This document shows, one piece after another, positions 908 through 19,356 of a DNA stretch of 35,047 bases. Below the pieces are notes generated by a model. The model saw only the letters and a program-made list of their open reading frames with translations. It was not told the DNA's origin and made no database searches. How positions within the stretch are numbered: the stretch's first letter is position 1; every line of letters starts with the position of its first letter. This DNA comes from a virus. Location: the IMG/VR virus record IMGVR_UViG_3300005338_000426, positions 1-35,047 of that record; one strand, 5' to 3'. The translations under genes were made by a program, and so were the position numbers.

Positions 908-987
908 TGAGGAAACCTCAAGAGCCACTACAGCCGTCGCAACCTACCTGCAATCCACCACCTGGGCGCCCGTGGTGGTAGATGATG

Positions 988-1374
988 ATGTCCAATCGGC
1001 ACTTACTCGTCAGTTTGCTAATGGCGCTTTCACTCGTGCGATGTTCTCATCGCGACGGCCGTTTTGCGCAGGTTTCGGGTCGATACTTCGACCATGCGAA
1101 AGTAGGTGCAATCGAGAACTGAAAGACATCTGAAGTGGAGATCGTGCGTCTCTTTGGGCCTCCTTATGAGACAGTAATACTCGGCGATGATCGTCGGCGG
1201 TTCGTCTATTCTTCAGTCCGACGCCGCGAGAACATCGAGGGCTTTTTATGGTTCAAGCGCGTGCACGTTCAGGTATGGGATCAAAGACTGAATGCGTTTC
1301 ACGGTAATCGGGTCGAAAACCACGATTACACTTCCAAACGGAATACTTCATCCGTAGTTCTTCTGCTCGCGTGA
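988..1374 (+). pseudogene. BamE/SmpA-like lipoprotein with an in-frame TGA
   Basis: The frame opens at ATG 988 (also 982 and 985) with a typical lipoprotein signal: a hydrophobic run ending in a Leu-Val-Arg-Cys lipobox near residue 18. It continues to a TGA at 1120-1122, and the same frame then runs on to 1374. Sequence on both sides of the stop looks like one protein: GAIEN, stop, KTSEVEIVRLFGPP, then a Tyr- and Arg-rich segment ending in VHVQVW. This resembles the small BamE/SmpA fold of outer-membrane lipoproteins, in which a Thr-x-x-Glu-Val turn precedes a Gly-Pro-Pro loop. A single GGA-to-TGA change would explain the interruption. A restart at GTG 1135 would lack the signal peptide. It sits in the Rhs cassette, so it may have been an immunity or accessory lipoprotein. 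Confidence 0.5.
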
Positions 1375-1528
1375 ATGGAGGTTTGTCCCACGTGGTGCCG
1401 CCCAGGACGCGGACGCCCTCGATAAGTATCGGTATCCCGGCTATTCAAAGAATGTATTGAAATGCGAAGAGTGCTTGAATGGCGGTACGACTCCGCAATG
1501 CTGCCTGGACCAAATCCATAAGAAATGA
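1358..1528 (+). pseudogene. orphan Rhs-type C-terminal tip remnant
   Basis: This is an open stretch without a proper start, bounded by TAG 1355 and TGA 1526. It encodes about 56 residues, including DALDKYRYPGYS and then a cysteine cluster (KCEEC...QCCLD) before the stop. The next gene begins 8 bases later. Placed between Rhs core fragments and directly before an exported protein, it looks like the 3' end of another displaced toxin tip. It is too short to assign a fold, and no catalytic motif is visible. Confidence 0.35.
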
Positions 1529-1535
1529 CGACGAT

Positions 1536-2093
1536 ATGCCGGCTCTGCTGATCATTGTTACGCTACTCTTTTTAACGTGCGAGGCAGAAGCGCGCGCGCC
1601 GAGCGCCGCTGTCAACGTATCGACGACCACTTGGCACGTCGGTCACGATTTGACCTGTACGGTGACAGAAGGGATAGATCACGAACGCACTCTGGCGATT
1701 CGCGATGGCACTCGGGTCCTGTTACGTGACGCAGACTATCTGCAATTCGTATCGATGTTCACGACACGAGACTTGGCCGGCCCGCTGATAACGGTTTGGA
1801 TCTCGGCGAATACCTATCGCATTCGTGTCCTCTCGTATCATGACGGCAAAGTGACCGTTGCACTCGATGATTATTCATCGTCGTTTCCCGAAATGTTCGA
1901 TTTGGACCATGATGGAGTTCCTGAGATCGTGCTTCGCGATCGCACCTATACCAACGCCCGTCCCGATACACCCACGCTCGCCGCTCCTGTCCGCGTATAC
2001 AAGTGGACCGCGAACACGTACACCTACTTGCCGTCATGGTCGGGATCGCAGACGGAGCTCTGTCCCAGCGTTGCGCCTCCGGAACGCCGGTGA
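1536..2093 (+). CDS. exported protein of unknown function, candidate periplasmic immunity protein
   Basis: This encodes 185 residues from ATG 1536; an in-frame start at 1479 would add an unlikely hydrophilic leader. Residues 1-19 form a classic signal peptide (hydrophobic core LLIIVTLLFL, then Cys-Glu-Ala-Glu-Ala). The mature part is beta-rich and includes an acidic segment, DLDHDGVPEIVL, near residue 125. That segment resembles the calcium-binding loops of FG-GAP/VCBS repeats. The C-terminus ends soon after a Ser-Gly-Ser-Gln-Thr-Glu-Leu segment. It follows the orphan tip remnant by 8 bases, which fits an immunity gene behind its toxin. I do not recognise the family; the immunity role is inferred from context. 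Confidence 0.55.
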   Translation: MPALLIIVTLLFLTCEAEARAPSAAVNVSTTTWHVGHDLTCTVTEGIDHERTLAIRDGTRVLLRDADYLQFVSMFTTRDLAGPLITVWISANTYRIRVLSYHDGKVTVALDDYSSSFPEMFDLDHDGVPEIVLRDRTYTNARPDTPTLAAPVRVYKWTANTYTYLPSWSGSQTELCPSVAPPERR

Positions 2094-2104
2094 CAGGCCG
2101 TCAT

Positions 2105-2160
2105 AACGTTTTTCAGATGGCACCTGATGAGGTGGGCGGTATACGCAGGCGGATTCGACG
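2105..2160 (+). pseudogene. second Rhs core fragment (NVFRWH...RYTQAD)
   Basis: This stretch aligns with positions 15-67: AACGTTTTT, a tryptophan codon region, then GGGCGGTATACGCAGGCGGA against GGGCGGTACACACAGGCGGA. Corrected translation gives NVFRWH...RYTQADST before a TAA at 2161. The same two interruptions occur as in the first copy, a five-T run where four T would be in frame and one surplus G before the RYTQAD block. It is the end of an Rhs core with its tip deleted or replaced, lying between two small accessory genes. Confidence 0.6.
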
Positions 2161-2187
2161 TAAGTGCGCTGCGACTGAGCACGAGAT

Positions 2188-2583
2188 ATGTTCCGACGAT
2201 ACAAGGCGACTGTTGCCGTCGAGACAATGCCGGAGGACGCGAACGTCTTCGTCTATGCACCGCTCGAACTGGCGGGAGCATCGATTCAAGTCAACGGGCG
2301 GATCGCTGGTCAACTCTGGCCCGACGGCGTGGTTCAGAGAAGCGCGTTTTTGGGCATTTTTGCACGCACACTTCCACACTCGAGGCGAGCTGTCTCCCGA
2401 CTGAACCTTGATGCTGGCCGGTATGAGCTGACGATCGAGAAAGATGGTTATCGAGCAATCCGGCGCACATTTGTGCACCCGAAGCAGCGAACGACAGAGA
2501 TCGTCATCGACGCGGCAGAAATGAATCGAAAACTGTCTGACGAACAACGCGAGGAGCTTCGGGACCGCGGCATCGAGAAGTGA
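2188..2583 (+). CDS. PEGA-like beta-sandwich protein, function unknown
   Basis: This encodes 131 residues from ATG 2188. Residues 5-105 have the look of PEGA and carboxypeptidase-regulatory-like beta-sandwich domains: an opening VAVETMPEDANVFVY strand, a VNGRIAG strand pair in the middle, and LDAGRYELTIEKDGY followed by an Arg-rich strand. The C-terminal 25 residues are charged and probably helical. No signal peptide or membrane segment is evident from this start, although PEGA proteins are usually exported. The true start may have been lost with the flanking Rhs debris. It belongs to the same run of small genes as the other cassette members. Function is unknown. Confidence 0.5.
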   Translation: MFRRYKATVAVETMPEDANVFVYAPLELAGASIQVNGRIAGQLWPDGVVQRSAFLGIFARTLPHSRRAVSRLNLDAGRYELTIEKDGYRAIRRTFVHPKQRTTEIVIDAAEMNRKLSDEQREELRDRGIEK

Positions 2584-2926
2584 CGCACCTACACTTCGAG
2601 TGCTGATCTCGGCGCGAAACGAAGCGCTGAACGGATTGAGAATCTTGCAGACTCAGTTCGATCCTTTGATCTTCTCGGAGTCTACCCAGCGCCCCGGTGG
2701 GACGGCTGTATCACGCGTGCCACGTTGAGCTTCCAAAGGGATGAGCGATGTCGTGACCGAGTCACATCAGCCGACGCCCCCCCCAAAGTCGGCCCGCACT
2801 TTGCTCTTTCATGTTGTTTTTCCTGATGTTCTGCAAACCGGGATTTCCGGGGTTTCGCCGGGACGGCAACGTTAGTAAACCCGTGTTTTGCAGGCACTTT
2901 CGCGCAATTCAACCGTTCATCCCACT
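2584..2926. other. non-coding junction between Rhs debris and prophage
   Basis: I see no convincing gene here. Bases 2670-2725 may be a third, badly decayed Rhs core end: a TACCCAGCG block followed by CCGG and GGG tracts parallels positions 31-52. A C8 run follows at about 2776-2783. From 2827 onward the direct repeats of the presumed phage end begin. The host-phage boundary therefore most likely lies between about 2760 and 2830, but no target duplication can be confirmed because the other end is outside the window. Confidence 0.4.
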
Positions 2927-2943
2927 TCACGATTGTTTTGCAG
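2827..2943 (+). repeat. three direct repeats at the presumed prophage left end
   Basis: The motif TGTTTTGCAG occurs at 2884-2893 and 2934-2943, and a close variant, TGTTCTGCAA, at 2827-2836. Spacing is 57 and 50 bases. Two of the three are followed by an ACCGGG block. MuA-type transposases bind several similar short sites near each phage end, and Mu-like genomes begin with TG. These repeats sit where such sites would be expected, outside the last leftward phage gene. The assignment is by position and pattern only. Confidence 0.45.
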
Positions 2944-3211
2944 GACCGGGGCGCGGCTCGGACCAGACAAAGCTGTCGTTTCGGTGCTCGATGTCTCTGC
3001 CGACGGCAGGTTCATGCCCTCTCACCAACGCGCACGAGATGCCCTCAAACCGGTCTGCCCTTGCTCCACAGTCTCCGAGTTGCTGCCGTAGCCGTCTGGC
3101 CTTTTCGCGTGCCGCAGCTTCGCTCAGCGCGGTCTCGTCCACGTCCCGCCGCCCCGCGATGAAGGCATGCCATTTCGAACCGATGCGCTTAGTTGTGATC
3201 TCCGAATCCAT
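2927..3211 (-). CDS. small hypothetical protein at the phage left end
   Basis: This encodes 94 residues from ATG 3211; GGAG lies 11 bases upstream. Longer frames to 3370 would run through the terminator hairpin, so I prefer this start. Residues 1-45 read like a compact strand-plus-helix unit: KRIGSKWHAFIAG, then an acidic turn and a helix with AREKARRLRQQL. This is reminiscent of short DNA-binding or integrase-associated domains. The rest is of low complexity and carries few landmarks. It is the leftmost gene on the phage side and lies beyond the terminator, so it would need its own promoter or readthrough. Function is unknown. Confidence 0.4.
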   Translation of the reverse strand: MDSEITTKRIGSKWHAFIAGRRDVDETALSEAAAREKARRLRQQLGDCGARADRFEGISCALVRGHEPAVGRDIEHRNDSFVWSEPRPGPAKQS

Positions 3212-3328
3212 GCCGACGAGTCTCCACGGCCGGTCGGTTCGTTGGCAAGGGCGGCCGGCCCTTTCTGTCGCGAGTTGGACGCGGAACGTGAATCGCGTCC
3301 ACCAGACGTAGAACCGCCGAAAACGAAA

Positions 3329-3355
3329 AAGCCGGACGCGGTGAGCGTCCGGCTT
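3329..3355 (-). terminator. rho-independent terminator of the transposase operon
   Basis: A perfect 11-bp inverted repeat (AAGCCGGACGC / GCGTCCGGCTT, loop GGTGA) lies 25 bases beyond the stop of the HTH gene. Reading leftward it is followed by TTTTTCGTTTTC, the U-tract of an intrinsic terminator. It closes the leftward transcript carrying the transposase, the small protein and the HTH gene. Confidence 0.85.
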
Positions 3356-3380
3356 ATCTTTCAGAAGCATGCGATTCGGT

Positions 3381-3632
3381 TCAGGCAGCGCGGCTGATGT
3401 CGGGATCGATCGTCATCTCGTCCATTGCAGCTTGGTCGATCTCCTTGCAGTGCTCCTCGAACCAGTCGCGCGGAATTCGAACGGCGGTGCCACCAAACGG
3501 ACGTGAGCCTGGAATGAGGCCGTCTGCGATCTTGCGATAGACCGTTGAGACTCCCATCCTGAGTTTCGCGGCGACTTCCTGCACCGTGACGTAACGACTC
3601 AGTTGCTTCAACTTCATTCCGTTATCTGACAT
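3381..3632 (-). CDS. excisionase-type helix-turn-helix protein
   Basis: This encodes 83 residues from ATG 3632; ATG 3617 is an alternative start. Residues 13-60 match the MerR-like winged HTH of excisionases and HTH_17 proteins: YVTVQEVAAKLRMGVSTVYRKIADGLIP, then the wing Gly-Gly-Thr-Ala-Val-Arg-Ile-Pro and a terminal Asp-Trp-Phe-Glu-Glu helix. Such proteins bind and bend DNA, acting as recombination directionality factors or small regulators. It is the last gene of the transposase operon and could modulate transposition or early transcription. The domain call is firm; the role is inferred. Confidence 0.75.
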   Translation of the reverse strand: MSDNGMKLKQLSRYVTVQEVAAKLRMGVSTVYRKIADGLIPGSRPFGGTAVRIPRDWFEEHCKEIDQAAMDEMTIDPDISRAA

Positions 3633-4139: not shown

Positions 4140-6302
4140 TTACTTGGGTTCGGTGAAGCCGGTCTCGATTTCGTGATTGGTGCAAAGGACGCGGCTGCGA
4201 CCGACGTGTTCGCCGCACAACTCGCAGAGGCCGTGATCGAGACGAACGATGTTCGTGCGCACATCCGAATCCTCGGCGGTGTCTTCGGGCGAGGGTGCAA
4301 GGTGGTTCGGGTTCGCGTCGAGGTAAGAGGCGCGGGCAAGAAACTCGGCTTCGGAGAAGAGACGCCATTCGGCCTCGGGCAAGTCGCGGAGTTTCCCTTC
4401 GCGGTCGCGCGTCACGTCGTGCAGTTGGGTCATGAATGCAAATGCCTCGGCGGTGGATGAAGGGGCGGCCTTATCGGATGTTCCGGACGTCAGATGTTCG
4501 TAGTAGGCAAGCATCACGCGCGCGTGCTCGGCAAGGCGCGCCTTGACGTCGCCGCTGATGGCGCGAGCGGCCATCCGCCGCAGCGCATAGATGTCACGGA
4601 AGGTTCTCGCGATCAGCCACTTTGTGACGTCGTCGCGCGTGTCGTACGTGGCGAGGACTTCATCGAGAACCGCGTCGCAGATATATCCGCCTGTTTTTCG
4701 ATCGAAGAGGACGACGCGGCGCGGATCGTCCGGCCAAATCCGAACCTCCACGCGTTCGCCGAAATATTCAAACTGCTTTTCGAGTGCGCTCAGGCGATAC
4801 GTGCGACCATCGATCCGGACGCCGAGCCGTCCAACAATGCGGGTGCCGGCGGGCTCGAAGAAGAGAAGTGCGAAGGTAGCAGGATCGGCATCGCGGCGTG
4901 GTGCGCGAAGGGACTCATCGCTGAAGACCTCGTGCGGTGTGCGGCCATTCATGCCGAGTCCGCCGTGCGGAGTCATGTTGTATCTCTCAACGGCGAGTTG
5001 AAGGCGATAGGCGATCTCCGAGACCTTCGGCAGTGCGTCGCGATCCTGAAACTCGTTCGGAATCGGGAACTGCTGATCGAACATCGCATCGAACGAGCGA
5101 AATGCGCTCTCGATCATGCCCTTTCCCTGTGGATTGCCGGGCAACGCATACACAACCTCGCTTCCCAATGCCGCCAGGCGAGGCGCAAGTTTCGTCGGCT
5201 TTTGATGCTTGTAACTCGACTTCGATAGCGGTGAGTGGTCGCCGAACGCGGCCACGAAATCGCTGCCGTTGTCCACGTAGTATCGCGGCGCGACACCGTG
5301 TTCGAGAGTGATTCGTCCAACGCTGCGAAGCGTCCGCCGCGTGTCGGGAGCATCGAGCGACAACTCATGACCGACGATGTAGCGCGAGCGCGTATCAATC
5401 CACGCGGTCCAAACGGGGCGGTGACCCAATACCCGCCTTCCGGCTCCTCCGAAGTAGCAGCGGCGGCATGTGTGGTCATCGCAGGAGACCGCGATGTCGA
5501 GCCAGCGATGATCGCCTTGAATCGTGTGATAGACGGGAACGCTCGTCGGATCGCGGCGCACGTACGGCAGCACGTCGCGCGGCGAATCGGCCGACTCGCG
5601 GCCGAGCATGCGCGCCATCCTCGGAATCGACTTCACATACTTTCGAAATGCGCGGTACGAAGGCATCGCACCCCAACCGCGCACCGCTGCCTCATCACAG
5701 ACATGGTTATAGACAAGGCGCAGCTTCGGCTGGCGCTTCTGAAGGTAGAGATCGCGAATGAGCTGCCGCGCCTCTTCGGGAATCGTCGAGCCGAGTTTCT
5801 TCGAGCCGTCATTGCCATCCACGAGGCCGTCGATTCCGAACTTCGCGAAGTCGGCGTCCCAATTCTTGACCGACCGCAGTGAGACTTTCAGCTCGGGATG
5901 CGTGAGCCGGTAGTGGTCAATCCAAGCTGATTCCACGGCGGCGAACGTTTCGTGCGGCAGACGCGCGGCGCGCGCCGCACGATAGGAGAGGACGGCGTCA
6001 ACGCGATCGTCCGCGCGGCTCCGAACCGATTCGAGGCGGGCGTTGGTGTAACGAGGGGCGGCGTCCGCGATCGCTTCGGCCGGATTCAGGTGGGGATAGA
6101 GGGTGAAGTAATGCCGTTTGTCGTCCTCCGGAAGCGAATAGATATTGATCTCGTAGACGCCGGGAGTGACTTCGCGGGCCTCGACGTGACGCGTCCATAT
6201 CCACTGCCGGAGCGCAACGGGATCGAGGGCAAGGTCGGACGCTAACTGAGGCACAGAGACCCAACGGCGGGGTGGCTGCGGTTCCTGCGGAAGTGCGGTC
6301 AT
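4140..6302 (-). CDS. Mu-type DDE transposase (MuA/TnsB family)
   Basis: This 720-residue protein catalyses the strand transfer by which the phage integrates and replicates. An N-terminal winged-helix segment (residues 12-55, with WVSVPQLASDLALDP) resembles the MuA N-terminal domain. The RNase H-like core follows, with the expected DDE triad at D264 (IQGDHRWLDI), D344 (YYVDNGSDF) and E398 (QGKGMIES). A Cys/His insertion (CDDHTCRRC, about 275-282) sits inside the core. Residues 455-545 form the Mu C-terminal beta-barrel region, and the last 35 residues carry a CELC...CTNHE zinc-ribbon-like motif not typical of MuA. The start overlaps the upstream leader ORF by ATGA, implying translational coupling. 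It points toward the left end, opposite to the late genes. No MuB partner is encoded nearby. Confidence 0.95.
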   Translation of the reverse strand: MTALPQEPQPPRRWVSVPQLASDLALDPVALRQWIWTRHVEAREVTPGVYEINIYSLPEDDKRHYFTLYPHLNPAEAIADAAPRYTNARLESVRSRADDRVDAVLSYRAARAARLPHETFAAVESAWIDHYRLTHPELKVSLRSVKNWDADFAKFGIDGLVDGNDGSKKLGSTIPEEARQLIRDLYLQKRQPKLRLVYNHVCDEAAVRGWGAMPSYRAFRKYVKSIPRMARMLGRESADSPRDVLPYVRRDPTSVPVYHTIQGDHRWLDIAVSCDDHTCRRCYFGGAGRRVLGHRPVWTAWIDTRSRYIVGHELSLDAPDTRRTLRSVGRITLEHGVAPRYYVDNGSDFVAAFGDHSPLSKSSYKHQKPTKLAPRLAALGSEVVYALPGNPQGKGMIESAFRSFDAMFDQQFPIPNEFQDRDALPKVSEIAYRLQLAVERYNMTPHGGLGMNGRTPHEVFSDESLRAPRRDADPATFALLFFEPAGTRIVGRLGVRIDGRTYRLSALEKQFEYFGERVEVRIWPDDPRRVVLFDRKTGGYICDAVLDEVLATYDTRDDVTKWLIARTFRDIYALRRMAARAISGDVKARLAEHARVMLAYYEHLTSGTSDKAAPSSTAEAFAFMTQLHDVTRDREGKLRDLPEAEWRLFSEAEFLARASYLDANPNHLAPSPEDTAEDSDVRTNIVRLDHGLCELCGEHVGRSRVLCTNHEIETGFTEPK

Positions 6303-6560: not shown

Positions 6561-7331
6561 ATGGAAACGAGAGAGCCGGAAGGCGCAGAGGAAGGTCTGC
6601 CGACCGAAGAGGAAGAGTCCTTTCTGATGCGCTTCGGGCGCACCATCAGCCAGCAACGGCGCCAGAAAGGTTGGTCACGGACGATTGCCGCTCGTCGGAT
6701 GCGGTGCTCCGAGGAAACGCTCAAGCGAACCGAACGAGGCGGCAACCCTACCCTGACCGTCTTTTTGGAGATCGTTCGAGGCCTCCAGATGCCGCCGTTC
6801 GAGATCGAGGGATACGTGATCGGCGCCAAGGACGAGGTGACCGTGAATCCGAAAAAGGGGAAAAATCGGTCTCGTGTTCCTCCAAACAGACGGAACGAGT
6901 TCCCGCTCCGTTCCAAAAACAAAGACTCACGCGTCGAATCGCTAGAGGTTGTCGGTCACAACCCGCAGACGAACCCGGTCCGGCTGAACGCCGAAATCCG
7001 GGAGCGGCGGCTCGTGACATCGGGGGATGGCGACTTGGTAATGCTTCCGGCGGACATTCCGACGGGCGACACGATTGCCGTGCGCATGATCGGTGACGAC
7101 TATGTCGGCGCCGGTCTCCGCAACGGCGACGTGTTGATGATCAAGCGCACGTCCGAGGTAGAACCCGGAAAGTTGGTCGTGGCGATCATTGATGGAATGG
7201 TCGTCATCGGCCGCTATCGGCCCGAGAATGGGAATCGCCGGCTCGTCGCCGATGATCAGACTGAGACGTTGCTACGAGACGAAGATGAAATCTATGGCTT
7301 CGTAGAAACACTCGTTCGGAAGTTCGATTAG
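6561..7331 (+). CDS. phage repressor: HTH plus S24-fold domain lacking the Ser/Lys dyad
   Basis: This encodes 256 residues from ATG 6561. ATG 6627 is an alternative with a better AAGAGGAAGAG site and would begin just before the HTH. Residues 24-75 form an XRE-type helix-turn-helix (FGRTISQQRRQKGW..., then ETLKRTERGGNPTL). Residues 95-150 are a basic linker, and 150-250 have the LexA/CI peptidase fold. The canonical Gly-Asp-Ser-Met is Gly-Asp-Asp-Tyr (178-181), and the usual Lys 37 residues later is Gly217. Self-cleavage as in LexA or lambda CI therefore looks impossible, and the domain probably serves oligomerisation. It faces the transposase operon across the palindromic operator, as an immunity repressor of lysogeny should. 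Confidence 0.85.
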   Translation: METREPEGAEEGLPTEEEESFLMRFGRTISQQRRQKGWSRTIAARRMRCSEETLKRTERGGNPTLTVFLEIVRGLQMPPFEIEGYVIGAKDEVTVNPKKGKNRSRVPPNRRNEFPLRSKNKDSRVESLEVVGHNPQTNPVRLNAEIRERRLVTSGDGDLVMLPADIPTGDTIAVRMIGDDYVGAGLRNGDVLMIKRTSEVEPGKLVVAIIDGMVVIGRYRPENGNRRLVADDQTETLLRDEDEIYGFVETLVRKFD

Positions 7332-7492: not shown

Positions 7493-8287
7493 TTGCACAC
7501 TCGTTCCCGGTTCTTGAATGTGGTTCTCGTGCTCGCGGTCACGGCGGTTGCCATGACTGCGAACGCCGACGCGATCCGCGCGACGACCGCACCGTCGAAT
7601 CTCGCGATCAAGTCGGTTGATGGTTATGCCGTTTACGGCGTGACCGACACCATCTCGACGCTGCTTCAGCTCACAACCAACCGTCCGCTCGCGGCTGTGG
7701 CGACGCTGGGCGACGGGCGCTCGTTCGATCTCGCGCCTGACACGTCGGCGTTCATTCCGTTTACGCCTGCGCCTGACGCGTTGGACGTCGGCGCAATCAG
7801 AATCCGCGGCAGTAACATCGACGGCTCAACCTTCGTGACGTTCAAATCGACGGCGGGCGCACATGTGATGGGGTTCGAAGTGCCGATCCTCACACAGAAG
7901 GTCGGCGACACCGCAGCGGCGACCGAGATTCGGCAGCTTACGAATCCGGACGGCAGCTCCTACTCGACCGCGCTCCTTCTGTTCAACGTCTCGAATGAGC
8001 GCGCCTGGGTGACGGCGACGATCTACGATGACGCCCGACCGGGCAAAGTGGCGGGTCGCGAGTTCATCCTGACCGAGCCGCACGGCGCGCTCACGTGGTA
8101 CGACGTCCGCACGAAATTCGATTCGGGCCGCATCGAACTGACACGCGGGACAATCGGCTTCGGTTGCACCGAGTGCGGAGCCCAGGGCGAGGTGTACGGC
8201 TTCGCAGTCATCGGAGCGCCGGATGGTGACGCGCCACGCGTACGGCCGATCATCGCGAAGCAGCCACTCGCAGTCTTCCTCCCGTAA
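7493..8287 (+). CDS. exported cargo (moron) protein of unknown function
   Basis: This encodes 264 residues from TTG 7493, chosen because AAAGGAG sits seven bases upstream and the signal peptide follows at once (hydrophobic core VVLVLAVTAVAM, cleavage after about Asn-Ala-Asp-Ala). The mature protein looks all-beta, with short repeating strands, several Ser/Thr-rich stretches (GSNIDGSTFVTFKSTAGAH) and a late CTEC pair that may form a disulfide. It resembles uncharacterised exported beta-sandwich proteins of environmental bacteria rather than a phage structural protein. It lies alone between the repressor and the lysis/late genes, a common site for lysogenic-conversion genes. The 160-base gap before it has room for its own promoter, with TATATT near 7426 as a possible -10. 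Function is unknown. Confidence 0.7.
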   Translation: MHTRSRFLNVVLVLAVTAVAMTANADAIRATTAPSNLAIKSVDGYAVYGVTDTISTLLQLTTNRPLAAVATLGDGRSFDLAPDTSAFIPFTPAPDALDVGAIRIRGSNIDGSTFVTFKSTAGAHVMGFEVPILTQKVGDTAAATEIRQLTNPDGSSYSTALLLFNVSNERAWVTATIYDDARPGKVAGREFILTEPHGALTWYDVRTKFDSGRIELTRGTIGFGCTECGAQGEVYGFAVIGAPDGDAPRVRPIIAKQPLAVFLP

Positions 8288-9420: not shown

Positions 9421-10020
9421 TTGTCAAAAACTCCGTTCGATCTCCGTACGCCAGCGCGTGAGCGAGGCGGCAAACACAAGCGCCACACACGCTCGTCCAT
9501 TGAGAAGACGGGCGCAGACGCGAGGCTTGCCGAGCTGCTCGACGAGCGACCGAAGCTCACATATGACGAGATCCGCGCGCGCCTCAGGGCTGAAGGTTTC
9601 AGCGTCTCGCGGTCTGCCGTAGGCCGTTGGGCGATCGAATATCTCGATCAGCAACGCGAATTCAAAGAGCGCCTTGCGCAAGCGAAGGGACTCCTCGCCG
9701 GCGACTCACGTAACGCACTCGCGCTCGAAGAGGCGAACGCCTCGCTGCTTCAAGCCAAACTCCTCGGCCATCTCCAATCAAAACGCGAGGTCGATAAAGA
9801 AGTCTACGAGGCCGCGTACGCCGTCGCAGCGCTCACGTCTGCGGCCTCGCAACGCGAGCGCGTTCGCCTTGCGCGTGAGAAGGCGATCCGGCTTGCCACC
9901 AAGCGGATCAAGGCCGACATCAAGCGCGAGCTTGATAAACATCCCGATCTCGTAGCGCGCCTCTCCGCAATTGCGGATGCGGCCGAGGCGGCGCTTCTCA
10001 CGCGCGCGGAGGCCGCGTAA
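9421..10020 (+). CDS. small terminase-like DNA-packaging protein (Mu gp27/DUF3486 type)
   Basis: This encodes 199 residues from TTG 9421, with AAAGG about 11 bases upstream. Residues 25-75 match the DUF3486 pattern: SSIEKTGADARLAELL, LTYDEIRARLRAEGF and the HTH-like SVSRSAVGRW. The C-terminal two thirds are long charged helices with many Ala, Lys and Arg residues, suited to oligomerisation. In Mu the equivalent gene sits directly before the large terminase, and here the stop overlaps that gene's ATG (TAATG). It should recognise phage DNA and load the large subunit for headful packaging. Confidence 0.75.
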   Translation: MSKTPFDLRTPARERGGKHKRHTRSSIEKTGADARLAELLDERPKLTYDEIRARLRAEGFSVSRSAVGRWAIEYLDQQREFKERLAQAKGLLAGDSRNALALEEANASLLQAKLLGHLQSKREVDKEVYEAAYAVAALTSAASQRERVRLAREKAIRLATKRIKADIKRELDKHPDLVARLSAIADAAEAALLTRAEAA

Positions 10021-11732
10021 TGGCCGCGCGTCGTCAGCGGAGCTGGACGCTCACCGAATCGATCAACCGCGATCCGGTGACGGCACGCGCGCGAAGCTAT
10101 TCGTTCCAACAGTTCCTCGAACGAGAAATCACGACGGATCAGGGGCCGTGGACGATCGCGGGTCATGAACCACTCGGCAAACTCGTCGAGCTGTTCCAGC
10201 GCGTCATCGCGACCCCGGAGCGTGACGTCGAAATCATCGGCCTCAAGGCCGCGCAAATCGGGTGGTCAACCCTCGCCCTTGCGCTTGCCTTCTATCTGAC
10301 GTCCTGTCGACAGCTCAACGTCGGCTATTTCCTTCCGACCGACAAATTCGCAGAGCGATTCGGACAAACGCGCGCCGACAAAATGATCAAGGCCGCGCGG
10401 TTCCTCCGCGCCGCGATGAAGGACGGCGCGCTCGGCGGCGTCCATCAGAAGGGTCTCAAGGAGTTCCGGGGCCACTACTTCTATCTGCTCGGCCTCGAGT
10501 CCGTGGCAAACGCGACGTCCATTCCGATGGACGCGCTGATTTACGACGAGGTTGATCTCCTCGACGAGGAGAACGCGACATGGTCGGAGGATCGCGTCGC
10601 TCATTCCGCACTGCGCCTCAAGATGTATCTGTCTGTCGGGATGTATCCGGGCGCCGGCATCGACGCGCGCTATCAGACCGGTACACAACATCGCTACGCC
10701 GTCTCCTGTGAGCGCTGCGGGAAGCGCGATCAGATCCTCGAAGACTCCTTTCCGGAGTGTATGCGCGTCATCGACGGATCGGCGCGGCGCGTATGTACGA
10801 AGTGCCACCGGCCGCTCGACCTGACGCGCGGCCAATGGATCGCCGAATACCCGTCACGCGAAGCGGATCGCCGGTACTCCTTCAAGCTCTCTGCGCTTTC
10901 GATGTCATCGATCGACGGCGATTACATCTGGAGCCGCTACACGCGCGCACAGCGGCGTAAGGCGTGGCTCGCAAAGTTCAACTGCTCTGTGCTGGCAAAG
11001 CCTGACGCAGGCGCAATGATGCCGATCACCGACGCGGAGATCGAGCAAATGAAGCGCGCGGGAGTCGCGCTCAAACTCTCCGGCGGCAACGGCGCGCCGC
11101 GTTTTGCCGGAGTCGATGTCGGCGATATCTGCCACTTCTGGTCCCATGAACTCCGACCCGCACGGGACGGAGAAGATCGCGCGCGTCAACTGACATGGCT
11201 CGAAGAGATCGACAGTGACCACCTCGTCGAGCGCGTCGCGACACTCATTGAGAAGCTCGATGTGCGGCGGCTTGTCATCGATAAGAAGCCACACACAGCG
11301 AGTGCGCGCCGGCTCGCCTATCTCTTTCCGCGCATCGTCGTCTTACAGGACTTCGCCGCCGGCGAGATGCGCGTGGTCGATGAGACGCACGAGGGCAAAC
11401 GGTACAAGTGCCTCAAGGTCGACCGCGACGATTCGCTCAATCAGTTCTGCTCCGAGATCACTGATCCGGACAACCCGCTACTGATTCCGGAAGCTGACAG
11501 CGAGGTGCTGCAAATCCTGGCGCGGCATCTCAAGCAATTACGTAAGAGCCGCACACAGGACTCGCGCGGCAACGAGATCGACGCTTTTGTGCGCGGGGTT
11601 GAAAACCATTTCGGAATGGCCGGCAACAGCGCACGCCTCGCCGAGGTCATCTCTCCGAAGAACGTGCGCTTCGAAGCCGATTTCCCCGACGAGGCGTACT
11701 GGCGGGCCGATGCGTTAGGAGCGATTCTGTGA
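10020..11732 (+). CDS. terminase large subunit (GpA-type)
   Basis: This 570-residue packaging motor and nuclease starts at ATG 10020, overlapping the previous stop. The ATPase domain shows a deviant Walker A, KAAQIGWST (75-83), and a Walker B, IYDEVD (174-179), as in the lambda GpA family. A four-cysteine zinc site (C230, C233, C259, C262) is inserted after it, which is also typical of that family. The RNase H-like nuclease begins at FAGVDVGD (D366, D369), and IDKKPHTASARR (420-431) follows. The protein cuts concatemeric or integrated DNA and drives it into the prohead through the portal. Its stop is two bases from the 3' end of a leftward cargo gene. Confidence 0.88.
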   Translation: MAARRQRSWTLTESINRDPVTARARSYSFQQFLEREITTDQGPWTIAGHEPLGKLVELFQRVIATPERDVEIIGLKAAQIGWSTLALALAFYLTSCRQLNVGYFLPTDKFAERFGQTRADKMIKAARFLRAAMKDGALGGVHQKGLKEFRGHYFYLLGLESVANATSIPMDALIYDEVDLLDEENATWSEDRVAHSALRLKMYLSVGMYPGAGIDARYQTGTQHRYAVSCERCGKRDQILEDSFPECMRVIDGSARRVCTKCHRPLDLTRGQWIAEYPSREADRRYSFKLSALSMSSIDGDYIWSRYTRAQRRKAWLAKFNCSVLAKPDAGAMMPITDAEIEQMKRAGVALKLSGGNGAPRFAGVDVGDICHFWSHELRPARDGEDRARQLTWLEEIDSDHLVERVATLIEKLDVRRLVIDKKPHTASARRLAYLFPRIVVLQDFAAGEMRVVDETHEGKRYKCLKVDRDDSLNQFCSEITDPDNPLLIPEADSEVLQILARHLKQLRKSRTQDSRGNEIDAFVRGVENHFGMAGNSARLAEVISPKNVRFEADFPDEAYWRADALGAIL

Positions 11733-11734
11733 AC

Positions 11735-12664
11735 CTACTCGCTCAGCGTTACATCAACGCGATTGTCATTGACGATCACGACCGACGCGTTCACGAGTGC
11801 CTGACTCGTAATGTCGGCATCGGCGAACTGCGCCATCGACTGGCAAGGCACGTACATCTGAATGACATCGTCGCCCGCGTCGCCTTCGCTCACGAAGTTT
11901 TTGTACGAGGTCAAGATAGAGAACTTGACCCCGGCCATCGAGTCGGGACACTTACCAAGCGTCTTGTTGATCTGCTTAAGCGCCGGGAACACAGTGCGCG
12001 AAAGCGCTTTCGCAATGCGCTGCGGCTGCTTGACCTGAATCGTGTTGTACACGTAGCCGTCCGAGCCGAGATTGACGCCGAGGTACGCCTTCTCTTTGTA
12101 CATCTCAGGCTTGATCGAGACCACCTTGGCATCCTGCGCCGTGGCGAGAATCGCAATCTGCTTGTCAGCCGGAATGTTTGCCAGAGGGCCGGTGAACGTC
12201 GATTTTGCGAGCGCCGCAAATGCGGCATCGCGGAAAGCCTTGATGTCGCTTGCATTCGCGGCGGGCACAAAGAGATCGGGCCATACGCGCGCGGCTTCAG
12301 CAACATTCGTAAAGCGGAACGTCTCGGCTGCCGTGCCGTATCCGTCGCCGGACAGCTCCACCTCGAACCGGCCGGTGCCACGATCATTGCGAATCTTCCG
12401 TACCGTAAGCACGGTCGTCGTCGGGAAGCCGGCTGCGAGCCACTGATCCGAGCCGTTTACGCGAACGCCACCAGACGCTGCGTCGATATCTGCGCTATAG
12501 CTCGCGTTTCCATTCCACGCACTCACGTTTTCGAACTTCATCGCTGCCAGCGGCACTTTCGAGACGTACTTCTCGCCGCGCTTCATAGGTACGTCGTCTG
12601 CCGCTTGAGATGACATCCCCACAAACAGCACAGCGACTGCGACAACAGCACACCTGATTTTCAT
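11735..12664 (-). CDS. exported periplasmic cargo protein inserted against the late operon
   Basis: This encodes 309 residues from ATG 12664, with GGAGG six bases upstream. Residues 1-22 are a clear signal peptide (AVVAVAVLFVGM, then Ser-Gln-Ala-Ala). The mature protein has alternating beta and helical stretches, including a strand-rich part near 40-110 (RFEVELSGDGYGTAAETFRF) and a central YLGVNLGSDGYVYNT, with a single pair of cysteines (near 246 and 282) that may form a disulfide. I do not recognise the family. It is the only large leftward gene within the structural region and fits exactly between terminase and portal, with its own ribosome site, so it is probably expressed in the lysogen. 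It is a lysogenic-conversion candidate; no phage role is apparent. Confidence 0.75.
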   Translation of the reverse strand: MKIRCAVVAVAVLFVGMSSQAADDVPMKRGEKYVSKVPLAAMKFENVSAWNGNASYSADIDAASGGVRVNGSDQWLAAGFPTTTVLTVRKIRNDRGTGRFEVELSGDGYGTAAETFRFTNVAEAARVWPDLFVPAANASDIKAFRDAAFAALAKSTFTGPLANIPADKQIAILATAQDAKVVSIKPEMYKEKAYLGVNLGSDGYVYNTIQVKQPQRIAKALSRTVFPALKQINKTLGKCPDSMAGVKFSILTSYKNFVSEGDAGDDVIQMYVPCQSMAQFADADITSQALVNASVVIVNDNRVDVTLSE

Positions 12665-12743
12665 GAATTCCTCCGGACCGATGAAATGTGGTTCGGCAGG
12701 ATAACCGCGATCCGGTTCCCGAACAACTTCCATCCCGCTAAAC

Positions 12744-14297
12744 GTGCCTCTTCCGACCTCATCCAACGCCCCGACTGTTCTGGACTGGACCGGAACGCCA
12801 ATCGTGCGCGAGTCTCGTCCGCCTGGGGAGAGGATCGCCGAAACGATCGGGGTTCGCGAACCATGGTCTTCGCGTGTCGTGCGCGAGGTCAGTCCGGAGC
12901 TTGTGTCGCGCGTTCTATCGCCGAACTGCGAGCTGAGCGACCGCATGGCTTTCTGTAAGCGCATCGGCCGCGACGATCACATTTTCGCCGTCTCGCGGAC
13001 CATGAAGTTGTCCATCTCCGGACTGCGGTGGGAAGTCCTTCCGTGTGACGACTCGCCGAAAGCGGAAGAGATCAGGAGTTTCGTCGAGCTTGTCCTTCGA
13101 GGCTTTCCGCGTTTCTCACAGATGCTCGTCAAGCTCCTCGACGGTATCGTCAAGCCCCTCGCCGGCGTCGAGATTCTTTGGGATTTCAAGACCTGGCTGC
13201 CTATCGGCTTCACGGAGATTGATCCCGTTCGCTGGACGTGGAATCGGCAAGTCAATGCGCTCCACCTCCGTACGATTCGCGCGCCGCAAGGCGAGCCACT
13301 CACGCCTAACGGATTCATCATCCATCGCGCCGACGACGAGCCGCTGTGGGAGAAGCTGGCATGGCTGTTCTCATTCAAACGCTTCGCATACGCGGAGTGG
13401 GTCCGATTCGGCGAGCTATACGGCAAGCCCTTCCGCATCGGCTTCTATCAAGACAAGAACGACAAGGCCGCAATCCTCGAAGCAATTCGTGAGCTTGGCG
13501 TCAATGCGGCGGGAGTGTTCCCGGAAGGAACCGAGATTCGCCTGGAAGAGGCCCAGCGCTATGGCACGGTCAACCTCTATCAGCTCCTCAAACGCGAGTG
13601 CGAAGAGGGAATCTCGAAGGTTGTTCTCGGCCACGCGCTCAACGCGGACGCTCGCACCGGCTCGGGATTACAGGCAGGAAACGCCGCCAAGGATGTCTCA
13701 GATGACAACCGCAGGGCCTATGCGATCGGCCTCGCGGACACGTTGCGGGATGCGCTCATTCGGCCGCTCGTCGGGTGGCATTTCGGATGGCAGTACGAGC
13801 CGCTGCTGCCGATCCTCAAGTTCGCGTACGAGGCACCGGAAAACCTTCTCAACACCGCGCAGTCGCTCAAAATCGCGAGCGATCTGCTCGCGGCCTCGGG
13901 CGAGGCTATCGATCCCGAGTTCATTCGTCAGAAGTTCGGCATCACGAAAACGGTTCGGCGCGTCTCCGTTCCGGCAGCGGTTCCGAATGACGCGGCGGGG
14001 AATAACGGCAACGACACGCCTCGTACGACGGAAGCTCGCGCGCTGGTTGCGCGTGACGGCGTTCCTGTCGTTCGCACTCTGGACGACGTCCATGCGCTCG
14101 CATCGCGTCTGGCGTCTCGCGCACTAAAGGAAATCACCGAGATCGTAAGGGCTAAAGCCGCCGCCTCTGAGTCTGTCGAGGCATTCGTCGATGCTCTGTA
14201 CGAATCGTATGATGAGATTTCCAACATCAAAACGGCGGCAATCGTGCGGGACGCCACCGTCGCCACGCATGAGATTGGGAGGGCGACGGCTGCATGA
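12744..14297 (+). CDS. portal protein (Mu gp29-like, DUF935)
   Basis: This encodes 517 residues from GTG 12744. It matches DUF935 portals: an N-terminal stretch of short helices, then DDHIFAVSRTMKLSISGLRWEV, a conserved central part with FSFKRFAYAEWVRFGELYGKPFRIG, an acidic segment EGTEIRLEEAQ, and the clamp-like GSGLQAGNAAKDVSDDNRRAYA. The last 100 residues are helical and Ala/Arg-rich. Twelve copies should form the ring at the unique capsid vertex through which DNA passes. The stop overlaps the next start by four bases (ATGA). Its promoter-proximal side is interrupted by the leftward cargo gene, leaving an 80-base gap. Confidence 0.88.
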   Translation: MPLPTSSNAPTVLDWTGTPIVRESRPPGERIAETIGVREPWSSRVVREVSPELVSRVLSPNCELSDRMAFCKRIGRDDHIFAVSRTMKLSISGLRWEVLPCDDSPKAEEIRSFVELVLRGFPRFSQMLVKLLDGIVKPLAGVEILWDFKTWLPIGFTEIDPVRWTWNRQVNALHLRTIRAPQGEPLTPNGFIIHRADDEPLWEKLAWLFSFKRFAYAEWVRFGELYGKPFRIGFYQDKNDKAAILEAIRELGVNAAGVFPEGTEIRLEEAQRYGTVNLYQLLKRECEEGISKVVLGHALNADARTGSGLQAGNAAKDVSDDNRRAYAIGLADTLRDALIRPLVGWHFGWQYEPLLPILKFAYEAPENLLNTAQSLKIASDLLAASGEAIDPEFIRQKFGITKTVRRVSVPAAVPNDAAGNNGNDTPRTTEARALVARDGVPVVRTLDDVHALASRLASRALKEITEIVRAKAAASESVEAFVDALYESYDEISNIKTAAIVRDATVATHEIGRATAA

Positions 14298-15544
14298 GCG
14301 TTCCCGAGCTCCCTCCGATGCTGAAGCCGTTCGCGGAAGCGACCACGTTTGCGCGCGAACGCGAGCCGCAGCAGCCGGAGTTCTATGCCGCTCTCGATAA
14401 CGACGCGCGCATGCGCGCATTCACCATCGCCGGCCTGCTCAAAACCTCCGCGCTTCAGGCGGCGCACGAGTTAGCCATCAGGCAAATCGAAGAGGGAACG
14501 CCAATGGCCGAATTCAACGACCAGCTGGCGAACCTAATCGAAGCCAACGGCGGCATGTTGTTGTCGAAGGCGCGGCTCGATCTCGTCTTCCGCAACAACA
14601 ACGCCGTCGTCGCATCCGCCGCGCGATACCGGCAAATCGTCGGGGAAGGCGTGGCCGATCGTCGGCCGTACGGGCAATACCCATTAGGGCCGGATGACTC
14701 GCATACGACCGAGGTCTGCCGACGCCTGCAAGGGTTGGTTTTTCCGCTGCGCTCGCTGCTGGCGAAACGAATCTGGCCGCCAAATCATCATGGCGAACGC
14801 CACATCGACATCACCACGATGACCGAGGAACAGGCGCGGGAATCCGGCCGCCTCTATGCCGGATCGCCGGATGACGAGTATCCGTTCCTTGAAGACCCGG
14901 AAACGGGGCAGGCGGCGCGCGTGATGCCGAATTCGGGGTGGGACTTCGATCCGTCGATCTTTGCGGCGGACGGCCAATACCTCGCGACGGAAGCAGCGGC
15001 AGCGACAAGGAAAGAAGTGGGGAAGAAGACGGCCGCCGACTACGGTCTCGCGCCTCTGGTGCAGACCGCCGCGGAACACATCGCGCGCGGCGAGCTTCTC
15101 CTGCCGGTCCAACTGCGAACCGCTGAAAAGAAGGCGTGGGAGGAATTCCGGTCGTCTATGCGCATGCCGCGCGACGGTTCCTCCGTGTTCGTTGCGGATC
15201 ACGCGGGCGACGGAGTGATGGTCACACGCGAGAGCTTCGCCGCGATCTACGCCGACCGGCCGGACACCTCGCGCTATTTCCGCTTCCTGATACCTACGAT
15301 CGAGAACCCTTACGAGGCGTGGCTCATCCCGGTACAGAGCGAGTCCGGCGAGACGACGTTCATGCGCCGGTACATCGGCCTGTACCGCATCACAGGAAAC
15401 CGGCTTGTCGCGATCGTCGTCGATCGTGCGCCGAACGGTTGGCTGATGCGGGCGCGCTACTACTACGACCACGATATGCCCGAGGCCGAGCGTCGCGGTC
15501 TGCTCACCTCGAACAAATCCATCAAGAAAGGTTCACCCAACTGA
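14294..15544 (+). CDS. Mu F-like head morphogenesis protein fused to a PBECR-type nuclease domain
   Basis: This encodes 416 residues from ATG 14294, overlapping the portal stop. Residues 45-190 are the Mu F (gp30-like) minor head domain: ALQAAHELAIRQIEEGTPM, LDLVFRNNNAVVASAARY and a CRRLQGLVF...WPPNHHGER close. Residues about 325-400 match the phage Barnase-EndoU-ColicinE5/RelE-like (PBECR) nuclease domain often found at the ends of such proteins: RYFRFLIPTIENPYEAWLIP, MRRYIGLY, then VVDRAPNGWL. F-like proteins sit at the portal vertex and may be injected with the DNA, so the C-terminal domain could act on RNA in the new host. Its activity is inferred from similarity, and I cannot verify the catalytic residues. 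Confidence 0.85.
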   Translation: MSVPELPPMLKPFAEATTFAREREPQQPEFYAALDNDARMRAFTIAGLLKTSALQAAHELAIRQIEEGTPMAEFNDQLANLIEANGGMLLSKARLDLVFRNNNAVVASAARYRQIVGEGVADRRPYGQYPLGPDDSHTTEVCRRLQGLVFPLRSLLAKRIWPPNHHGERHIDITTMTEEQARESGRLYAGSPDDEYPFLEDPETGQAARVMPNSGWDFDPSIFAADGQYLATEAAAATRKEVGKKTAADYGLAPLVQTAAEHIARGELLLPVQLRTAEKKAWEEFRSSMRMPRDGSSVFVADHAGDGVMVTRESFAAIYADRPDTSRYFRFLIPTIENPYEAWLIPVQSESGETTFMRRYIGLYRITGNRLVAIVVDRAPNGWLMRARYYYDHDMPEAERRGLLTSNKSIKKGSPN

Positions 15545-16533
15545 AGAAGCACTTTCCACACGTAAGCCTCATCCACAAGGACTGTCGAGAGGCGTTGCGA
15601 TCGATGGCGGACGAAAAAATCGACGCGATCGTGACCGATCCGCCGTACGAACTGGCGCTCGACGGTAAACAGTGGGACTCGACCGGCATCGCATTCGACG
15701 TCGATCTGTGGCGCGATGCGCTGCGCGTACTAAAACCGGGAGGCCACCTGATTGCCTTTGGCGGTTCACGCACGTATCACCGCATGGCCGTCGCGATTGA
15801 AGACGCAGGGTTCGAGATTCGGGATTGCCTCATGTGGTTGTACGGGTCCGGTTTTCCAAAGTCACTCGATGTCAGCAAAGCCATCGACCGACGAGCTGGC
15901 GCGGAGCGGCCCACAATCGGCTATCGAAATGCGAGTGTCACCGCCGGCACGACACTCTACAACCCGAGCAGGCGGGTTGCCATTCAGCTCGCCATTACGG
16001 AGCCGGCGACCGACGCGGCGAAGCAATGGGATGGCTGGGGAACGACTCTAAAGCCCGCATACGAGCCCATTGTGCTTGCCCGGAAGCCATTCAAGGGAAC
16101 GCTGCTCGACCATGTTCTCACGCACGGAATCGGAGCACTCAACATCGACGCTTGCCGCATTCCGTATGCAACGGGCGAGACGCCTTGGGCAGTCGGCAGC
16201 GCGGCCAAAGGAAGATTTCCTGCGAACGTCGTCTTCGATGAGGAAGCAGCCGAAGCACTCGGCAAGCGTTCGCGATTTTTCTACGTCACGAAACCGGCGA
16301 AGAGGGAACGCGGCGCGTATAACCACCACCTCACGGTCAAGCCGCTCGACCTGATGAAGAACCTCGTCCGGCTGGTCACTCCTCCGGGCGGAGTTGTACT
16401 CGATCCATTCGGCGGCAGCGGCACCACAGCGCTCGCAGCGCTTGCTGAAGGGTTCGACGCAATCGTCATCGAGCGCGATCGCGAGTCGTTCACGACCGCA
16501 GAACGGCGCATTGAGGACGCAAAGGCCGCGTAA
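15541..16533 (+). CDS. beta-class DNA adenine N6-methyltransferase with CTG start
   Basis: This encodes 330 residues. The frame has no ATG, GTG or TTG near its natural beginning; CTG 15541 overlaps the previous stop as CTGA and has AAGAAAGG nine bases upstream, so I take it as the start. Restarting at ATG 15604 would remove the first strand. Motif IV DPPY is at 33-36, followed by a substrate-binding part with FGGSRTYHRM. Motif I (DPFGGSGTT) lies near the C-terminus at 288-296, the order of the N6_N4_Mtase beta class. DPPY points to adenine N6 methylation. No cognate restriction enzyme is present, so it likely protects phage DNA from host restriction or alters gene control. Confidence 0.88.
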   Translation: MKKHFPHVSLIHKDCREALRSMADEKIDAIVTDPPYELALDGKQWDSTGIAFDVDLWRDALRVLKPGGHLIAFGGSRTYHRMAVAIEDAGFEIRDCLMWLYGSGFPKSLDVSKAIDRRAGAERPTIGYRNASVTAGTTLYNPSRRVAIQLAITEPATDAAKQWDGWGTTLKPAYEPIVLARKPFKGTLLDHVLTHGIGALNIDACRIPYATGETPWAVGSAAKGRFPANVVFDEEAAEALGKRSRFFYVTKPAKRERGAYNHHLTVKPLDLMKNLVRLVTPPGGVVLDPFGGSGTTALAALAEGFDAIVIERDRESFTTAERRIEDAKAA

Positions 16534-17834
16534 TGGCTTCCGGCCCTCTCGCGCGCGAGCGCGCAACGCGGCTCGCGGTCGCTGTGGGACCCCTCACGCC
16601 ATACCGCGCGGCCTCCGCAACGATCGGCGGCGATCCACCGGCAAAGGTGCTGATCTTTCCTCCGGACGTCTGGCCGCTCGCAGACGGCGACGGGCTCGTT
16701 ACGGATGCCGAGTCGTTTCAGAGCGTCCTGGCGAACTTCCACGAGCGCGGCATTTTGATTGTGTTCGATTACGAACACATGACGATTGATGAATACCGCA
16801 AGCCGGGGGAGCTGCCGATCGCGGCGGGGTTCATCACCGACCTCGAGATCGCTCCCGAGGGACTCGTCGGAAGCGTGACCTGGACCCCTCGCGCAGCGGC
16901 ACACATCGCGGCCGGCGAGTATCTCTATCACTCGCCCGTTGCGATCTACGACAAAACGACATTACGCGTCATGGCTCTACACAGCTGCGCGCTGACGAAC
17001 ACGCCGCGCACGAATCATCAGAAGCCGATTACCGAGCAGGTGGCGGCGCGGATCATCGCCGCGTGCTGGCCTGACGAGAAAGGAGGTCAACAAGTATTGA
17101 AGTGGACAGAACTACTTGCACAATTCCTCGCGGCTCGCATGGGTTCACCCGCCGCCGAAAAGATCGCCGCGCTGCAAGCCGTGGTCGATTCTCTTGCAGC
17201 ATCCGGTGCTGAGACGGTCGCCGCTTCGAACGCCGACGAGTCGATCCTCGCGCACCTGCAACTGGCGCCGCTCAATGACATTCCGGCCGCGTCCGAACCC
17301 GTTGCCGCCGCACTCGGTCTCGATGCCTCGGCCGACTCGAATGTCATCGTCGCGCGGATCACCGAAATGAAAACCGGTGTCGTTGTGAAGGCCGAGCACG
17401 ATGCCGCGATCGCGGCGCTGACAGCGACGGTGGCCGATCTCACCTCGCGACTCGAATCCGCGCATCCGAACGACGTCGAAGCGGTGATTGCGGCGAACCT
17501 CGAAAAACTGTCCCCCGCTTTGCGGCAGAACATCCGGGCAGTCGCGAAGTCGGATAAGACGCTTGCGCTCGAAATGATCGCCAACATCACCGGCACACGC
17601 GCCGCAGCAACGGTGCCGATGTCGCCGATCGCCGGCCACGAGTCCGCCGGTTCACCGGACGCCAGGACGACAGAAATCGCTACGCACAGGGTCTGGCGCG
17701 GACAGCCGCTCCCGGTAAGCGAATCCTCCGGATCAATGGCCGCCGCCATTCGCGCGATTGCGGCCTCGGAAGGCTGCGACTACGTCGAAGCCACGAGCCG
17801 CTACCACAAGCGGCACACAAAGAGCGCCGCGTAG
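16533..17834 (+). CDS. Mu I-like head maturation protease fused to scaffold
   Basis: This encodes 433 residues from ATG 16533, overlapping the methyltransferase stop (TAATG). The N-terminal 185 residues match Mu gpI: VFDYEHMTIDEY near 75, AAGFITDLEI near 95, WTPRAAAHIAAGEYLYHSPV near 112-131 and LHSCALTNTPRTN near 150. The Asp-Tyr-Glu-His and Ser-Cys-Ala-Leu-Thr blocks are the conserved landmarks of this protease family. The rest is an Ala-rich, helical, acidic region typical of a scaffold. The protease trims scaffold and itself during prohead maturation. A strong internal ribosome site at 17080 allows the scaffold part to be made alone. Confidence 0.87.
   Translation: MASGPLARERATRLAVAVGPLTPYRAASATIGGDPPAKVLIFPPDVWPLADGDGLVTDAESFQSVLANFHERGILIVFDYEHMTIDEYRKPGELPIAAGFITDLEIAPEGLVGSVTWTPRAAAHIAAGEYLYHSPVAIYDKTTLRVMALHSCALTNTPRTNHQKPITEQVAARIIAACWPDEKGGQQVLKWTELLAQFLAARMGSPAAEKIAALQAVVDSLAASGAETVAASNADESILAHLQLAPLNDIPAASEPVAAALGLDASADSNVIVARITEMKTGVVVKAEHDAAIAALTATVADLTSRLESAHPNDVEAVIAANLEKLSPALRQNIRAVAKSDKTLALEMIANITGTRAAATVPMSPIAGHESAGSPDARTTEIATHRVWRGQPLPVSESSGSMAAAIRAIAASEGCDYVEATSRYHKRHTKSAA
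17097..17834 (+). CDS. internal in-frame scaffold protein (Mu Z-like)
   Basis: TTG 17097 lies in frame within the protease gene and is preceded at 17079-17087 by AAAGGAGGT, the strongest Shine-Dalgarno match in the head genes. Translation from here yields 245 residues covering only the helical, Ala-rich scaffold part. In phage Mu the scaffold gpZ is made in the same way from within gene I. The product would outnumber the protease and fill the prohead interior before cleavage. The evidence is the ribosome site, the frame and the domain boundary; expression is inferred. Confidence 0.65.
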   Translation: MKWTELLAQFLAARMGSPAAEKIAALQAVVDSLAASGAETVAASNADESILAHLQLAPLNDIPAASEPVAAALGLDASADSNVIVARITEMKTGVVVKAEHDAAIAALTATVADLTSRLESAHPNDVEAVIAANLEKLSPALRQNIRAVAKSDKTLALEMIANITGTRAAATVPMSPIAGHESAGSPDARTTEIATHRVWRGQPLPVSESSGSMAAAIRAIAASEGCDYVEATSRYHKRHTKSAA

Positions 17835-18393: not shown

Positions 18394-19356
18394 TTGGCCG
18401 TCAGCAAGCTCGAAAAGCTGCGCTATGTCGATGAGCACAATACGAACCTCGTCACCGGGTACCGGTTTCCGGAGTTTGTAGGCGTTACCGAAATCGCGCC
18501 GATCATCGACACCACACAGGAAGCAGGGAAGTTTCCGAAGTTCGGGGCCGAGGCGATGATGGTCTACCCCGAAATCCGCCGCCCGTTCATGTCGCCTCGC
18601 GTGCGGATCAATCAAACGATGAGCTTCGGCACCTACGCCACCGACGAGGTGGGCGTTGAGGTGGCGATCTACGACCGCGAGCGGCGCGCCGTGCCCGACA
18701 AGGTGCGCGCGCGCTACGAGGAAAACAAAGTGAAGCTCGGCGAACAGGTCATCCAGTTATGGATGGAGTATTCGATCGCGACCATCCTGCAAGACCCAAC
18801 GCGCTACGCGTCCGGTTGCGTCGAAGCTCTTACGGGCGCGAATCAGTGGCAGGACAAACTCAATTCCGATCCGTGGGCCGACATGACGCGCTGGCTCACG
18901 ACGCTCAAATACAAAGTCGGCAAGGACTTCAAAGACCTCTCGATTGCCCTCGGCGCGAAAGGCATGCTCGCGCTGATTCAGCATCCGAAGACCATTGACC
19001 GTTTCGCGCGCGGCACCGTGGCAAACGAAGTCGGAATCGCGAACATGCTCGGCTGCCGCAGCGTCAAGCTGTTCTCGGGTATGTACGTCACCGACATGCT
19101 CGACGCCGAGGACCCTGATTCGGCGGTCATGTCGGACCTGTGGGGCGACGTCGCCGTTTCCTACTACAAAGTCGACGACGCGCAGATCGGCGATCCCGTC
19201 GCAGCTGCAATTGCGCGTGTGGACGGCGCGAAGGTCGTGACCGAGTACCGCGATGAGCGGCACACCTGCGACATCAAAGCGGTCGATGACAACTTCGGTT
19301 TCGTCCAGGTCTCGAACCGTCGGCTCGTGCTCGCGACCGGTGTCGCCGGGAACTAA
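18394..19356 (+). CDS. major capsid protein (HK97 fold, Mu-like group)
   Basis: This encodes 320 residues from TTG 18394, with GGAG about 12 bases upstream. The length, order and features fit a Mu-like major head protein: a short N-terminal arm, an acidic E-loop region (PEIRRPFMSPRVRINQTMS), a central spine helix (ARYEENKVKLGEQVIQLWME), and a beta-rich A domain (LWGDVAVSYYKVDDAQIGD). There is no long N-terminal delta region, consistent with a separate scaffold. It assembles the icosahedral shell around the scaffold from the preceding genes. The hairpin in its leader and its position after the cement gene support the call. Confidence 0.8.
   Translation: MAVSKLEKLRYVDEHNTNLVTGYRFPEFVGVTEIAPIIDTTQEAGKFPKFGAEAMMVYPEIRRPFMSPRVRINQTMSFGTYATDEVGVEVAIYDRERRAVPDKVRARYEENKVKLGEQVIQLWMEYSIATILQDPTRYASGCVEALTGANQWQDKLNSDPWADMTRWLTTLKYKVGKDFKDLSIALGAKGMLALIQHPKTIDRFARGTVANEVGIANMLGCRSVKLFSGMYVTDMLDAEDPDSAVMSDLWGDVAVSYYKVDDAQIGDPVAAAIARVDGAKVVTEYRDERHTCDIKAVDDNFGFVQVSNRRLVLATGVAGN

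Follow-up and report, generated by a model that had tools for sequence, protein, structure and literature searches.

Why should a gene for an exported protein lie, in reverse orientation, between the terminase and portal genes of a Mu-like phage? The question is raised by a 35,047-base virus record from IMG/VR that holds a Mu-like transposable prophage; this whole stretch of DNA is referred to here as the window. The gene, which we call P0001, occupies positions 11735-12664 on the minus strand.

Bases 1 to approximately 3600 of the window look host-derived, with a weak match to the end of an Rhs core and a PEGA-domain protein. The host may be an acidobacterium, a possibility suggested by protein style and treated as a lead only. 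The element is marked as a transposable phage by a Mu-type transposase (4140-6302, minus strand). On the plus strand are an HTH/S24 repressor (6561-7331), a gene for a secreted protein (7493-8287), a Mu gp27-like small subunit of terminase (9421-10020) and an intact, 570-aa, gpA-type large subunit of terminase (terL, 10020-11732; phrog_675, E = 1e-85; GpA_ATPase, E = 3e-16). Beyond P0001, the plus strand codes for a 517-aa Mu-type portal that is gp29-like (12744-14297; Portal_Mu, E = 3e-64) and a gp30/F-like head protein (14294-15544), in which a C-terminal PBECR2 nuclease-like domain was noted (Pfam, E = 8e-10). A Mu-I-like protease (16533-17834) and the major head protein (18394-19356) lie farther along, and an N6/N4 methyltransferase is listed between the gp30/F-like head protein and the protease.

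The coordinates and strand given for P0001 in an initial annotation of this DNA are exact, as is the spacing of two bases from the terminase: the gene begins with an ATG at 12664 and ends with a stop codon at 11735-11737, and the stop codon of terminase ends at 11732. The same annotation described terminase and portal as the flanking genes, which agrees with the family matches listed above, and attributed to P0001 its own ribosome site and a clean signal peptide, both of which we also find. A GGAGG in the 5' leader (12665-12767, minus strand) precedes this ATG by 5-6 nt (CCGGAGGAATTC-ATG). The N terminus of the 309-aa product, MKIRCAVVAVAVLFVGMSSQA followed by ADD, fits by eye a Sec-type signal peptide (approximately residues 1-21) that has SQA as its cleavage site and is without a lipobox. 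The mature part, of approximately 288 aa, contains two cysteines and, again by eye, no obvious transmembrane segment. Although the frame stays open upstream to 12964, we take the ATG at 12664 as the start, since this is the one that combines a signal peptide with a ribosome site.

P0001 is a real coding gene. None of 2000 dinucleotide shuffles of the insert reached 309 codons (the longest frame had 308, and the median was 126). Its codon-usage score is 0.245 nats/codon, ten other genes of the window span 0.171-0.324, and the other five frames over the same DNA score 0 or less. It is very improbable that the frame is the shadow of another frame, or that the window is an assembly chimera of two contigs. 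Such doubts might come from a 294-aa plus-strand frame on the same DNA (11729-12613) and from the fact that the locus is a single metagenomic record. However, the plus-strand frames score no higher than 0 compared with 0.245 for P0001, and the 294-aa product has no match in Pfam, so we rejected that frame as a gene. A chimera would take two joins, both exactly at gene boundaries.

The initial annotation saw no known family for the product, and this is upheld within the libraries searched. P0001 matched no entry of Pfam, PHROGs, NCBIfam or PADLOC significantly, nor any PDB sequence; we took the top-ranking PDB and NCBIfam lines (E = 0.03-0.26) as chance. At E = 10, tblastn found no match in 50,697 phage and 72,556 plasmid records. 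Peptide-pattern scans, two over viral contigs and one over genome contigs, reach close relatives only and yielded no relative in IMG/VR or in 84,980 species genomes. Whole-genome searches covered three phyla, with 287, 398 and 296 genomes. One match to P0001 (locus L180, E = 0.009) contains an internal stop, and another (locus L183, E = 1e-4 per genome, in 398 genomes) lies where longer frames exist on other strands or frames; both were judged spurious. Structure prediction and search were also run and gave no confident fold. Because AlphaFold without an alignment produced no usable model (pLDDT of 40 for the whole protein and 53 for residues 178-309), structural matches were disregarded, and fold searches with the model of residues 178-309 gave no match below E = 0.01.

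The evidence for insertion comes from the same junction in related phages. An alignment-based scan with the terminase over viral and genome contigs gathered 43 loci with both genes, some of which are two records of one phage, so that approximately 35 are distinct. In 42 of the 43 loci, which share this terminase type, the portal starts between 3 nt before and 25 nt after the terL stop. The exception, L056, has an apparent distance of 636 nt and a split terL frame, and its true gap is approximately 80 nt. The terminases of the six nearest records (L048/L103, L100, L101, L102 and L104) are approximately 39-43% identical to that of the window, and in these records terL and portal overlap by one base. 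The distance in the window is 1012 nt. Because relatives have the two genes directly or almost directly adjoining, approximately 1.0 kb was inserted in the window, and P0001 is shown to be an insertion between terL and portal. The gene is wholly missing from the full records of five near phages (L100, L101, L102, L104 and L048) and, one spurious match aside, was not found in any frame of the related loci. With the junction closed in these loci and no relative of P0001 in the closest phages, the earlier proposal of a precise cargo insertion is supported; the contrary case that it had named, a gene conserved in this phage lineage, was looked for and not encountered.

The left side of the insert retains an AGGAG-7 nt-GTG(A) element that overlaps the terminase stop (11716-11732, plus strand) and, given the one-base overlap in relatives, is apparently the former portal start. 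This abandoned-looking ribosome site and GTG also open the 294-aa frame, a nonsense frame antisense to P0001. The present portal start, a GTG at 12744, has no clear ribosome site and adds approximately 4-9 N-terminal residues relative to relatives. Because the start is shifted in this way, the right end of the insert can be placed only within 12665-12767. No repeats or transposon ends were found at the insert boundaries.

A wider set of junctions comprises 109 loci, duplicates included, in which a long gene precedes a Mu-type portal. The gap is 100 nt or less in 95 of them, and the larger gaps are mostly 665-745 nt, in phages like the Faecalibacterium phage FP_Mushu, which has an annotated DNA methyltransferase between terminase and portal. 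Methyltransferases are co-directional cargo at L003 (2644-3309) and L034 (5991-6797, where the insert is read as one); the other inserts of 665-745 nt were not read one by one. At L081 the junction holds a co-directional 311-aa frame with a HEIGH motif (1707-2642), and in phage RC1 it holds a small frame. The terminase-portal junction therefore accepts cargo, but none of the cases read showed another reversed gene at this place. The generalization that terminase and portal are almost always adjacent, on which the initial annotation relied, stands for this terminase type but not for Mu-type portals as a whole, since approximately one-tenth of their loci carry co-directional cargo.

The composition of the insert is shifted toward that of the host-like flank. 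GC content is 57.7% in the insert, 61.8% on both sides of it and 56.5% in window positions 1-3600, which puts the insert among the lowest 2.5% of phage windows of equal size. Its trinucleotide usage is equally far from the host flank and the phage, falls under the 5% quantile for phage windows, and leans toward the host flank more than that of 95% of phage windows. The codon usage of P0001 is phage-like. Because it equals that of the phage genes, the case for a foreign origin comes down to a modest GC shift; P0001 is probably foreign and perhaps from the host, and uptake from the host chromosome would fit the composition.

This shift would also suit a neutral passenger, that is, recently captured host DNA with an intact frame and no benefit, which may even disable the phage, having cost the portal gene its ribosome site. 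P0001 has no relatives in phages and is known from one contig only, and the portal GTG has no evident Shine-Dalgarno sequence, its former site having been left behind. We nevertheless consider this explanation doubtful, because the frame of P0001 is fully intact with phage-like codon usage and the neighboring terL and portal genes are intact. Moreover, the window genes that begin at 9421 and 6561 are likewise without a clear ribosome site, so the missing site of the portal gene is weak evidence.

A part in the lytic cycle, for example as a late lysis or virion factor, might be expected of a gene in the late region, and many exported phage proteins serve lysis. However, P0001 is on the strand opposite the late operon and is missing from all relatives, in which the genes from the small terminase subunit to the major capsid protein all run in one direction, except for a 78-codon call in the capsid-gene region of L101. 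We therefore regard a lytic role as highly unlikely.

In our assessment, P0001 is probably a moron of the Mu-like prophage: one gene of foreign and perhaps host origin that is kept for an envelope or periplasmic function at the lysogen stage. A moron has been defined as one gene between two core genes and outside the late transcript (PMC4378225), and the arrangement of P0001 fits this definition. The gene separates two neighbors that stand side by side in related phages, and close relatives do not have it. The insertion is thus real and of an already known kind.

As a moron, P0001 would be one complete gene that came with a leader of its own, probably from a bacterial chromosome, and illegitimate recombination would have placed it exactly between terL and portal, pointing opposite to the late operon. 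Transcription would proceed from this leader at a time when the lysogen keeps its late operon silent. A promoter would be expected in the leader; around P0001 we found no match to a sigma-70-like promoter, from which host promoters may differ, and no convincing terminator, terminator-like matches being at chance level. The product would be exported by Sec to the periplasm or medium, where it may act on the host envelope to the benefit of the lysogen. During lytic growth the gene should be off, because late transcription runs against it.

The initial annotation suggested a surface-exclusion, defense or fitness factor, and these roles are conjectural. One benefit to consider is superinfection exclusion, in which exported P0001 in the periplasm or on the lysogen surface would keep related phages from adsorbing or their DNA from entering. 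Known prophage exclusion proteins work in the cell envelope, and P0001 is a prophage-carried gene with an exported product, whose orientation suits expression independent of the late operon. Against this, P0001 has no significant match in PADLOC, Pfam, PHROGs or NCBIfam and no confident fold, it exhibits by eye neither the transmembrane segment nor the lipobox common in known exclusion proteins, and its mature part of 288 aa exceeds most of them in size. We judge exclusion unlikely; because there is no positive pointer to it, a host fitness or envelope function is the more likely role of the moron. Even less likely is the farther-reaching idea that P0001 founds a new exported prophage family that alters the envelope of poorly studied bacteria, excludes competitor phages and is delivered via the terminase-portal junction.

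The window contains other exported or inserted genes. An exported-protein gene of 249-316 aa lies between the repressor and the lysis/terminase genes in the window (7493-8287, plus strand) and in its four nearest relatives (L104, 2004-2864; L100, 2524-3330; L101, 2385-3134; L102, 2643-3593). These proteins are very diverged, and phmmer links the window product to that of L104, L104 to L100, L100 weakly to L102, and L102 to L101, with E values of 1e-7 to 1e-62 and one link at 2e-4. The window product has no Pfam or PHROGs match. Judging from these alignments, we take the gene to be an undescribed, recurrent and fast-changing exported gene of this Mu-like lineage. It was rejected as cargo of the P0001 type because it recurs at the same place in the four nearest relatives. 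Separately, positions 24610-24903 of the minus strand code for a 97-aa protein that is HicB/UPF0150-like (Pfam, E = 1e-4, below the cut-off). The gene lies in a patch of approximately 1 kb with low GC content (approximately 56%) between the tail-chaperone and tape-measure genes. It is another reversed insert among the late genes, and no HicA partner for it was seen.

Phages change their hosts to a large extent through the cargo genes of temperate phages, which are one of the main routes. With P0001, the candidates for lysogenic conversion gain an orphan exported protein, and its position indicates that the terminase-portal junction, tight enough for a one-base overlap in relatives, tolerates a reversed gene of 1 kb. 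Alone, it settles no open question.

Several known systems can be compared with this locus. Lambda Bor and Lom, P22 SieA and T4 Sp/Imm are lysogenic-conversion or exclusion proteins that are phage-coded and exported to or active at the envelope, as is predicted for P0001. They differ in that the family libraries reveal no sequence relation to P0001, which resembles neither a lipoprotein nor a membrane protein. FP_Mushu and similar phages also have a cargo gene in a Mu-type head module, at exactly this junction, but their methyltransferase is a cytoplasmic enzyme, is co-directional within the late operon and accompanies a different terminase type. A like arrangement is that of the morons, or accessory genes, in regions of genomic plasticity of Mu-like phages of P. 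aeruginosa, which also consist of a single nonconserved ORF between core genes that are adjacent in relatives (PMC4378225). Those ORFs are mainly 34-100 codons long, whereas P0001 has 309 codons, is predicted to be exported, and lies reversed at the terminase-portal junction.
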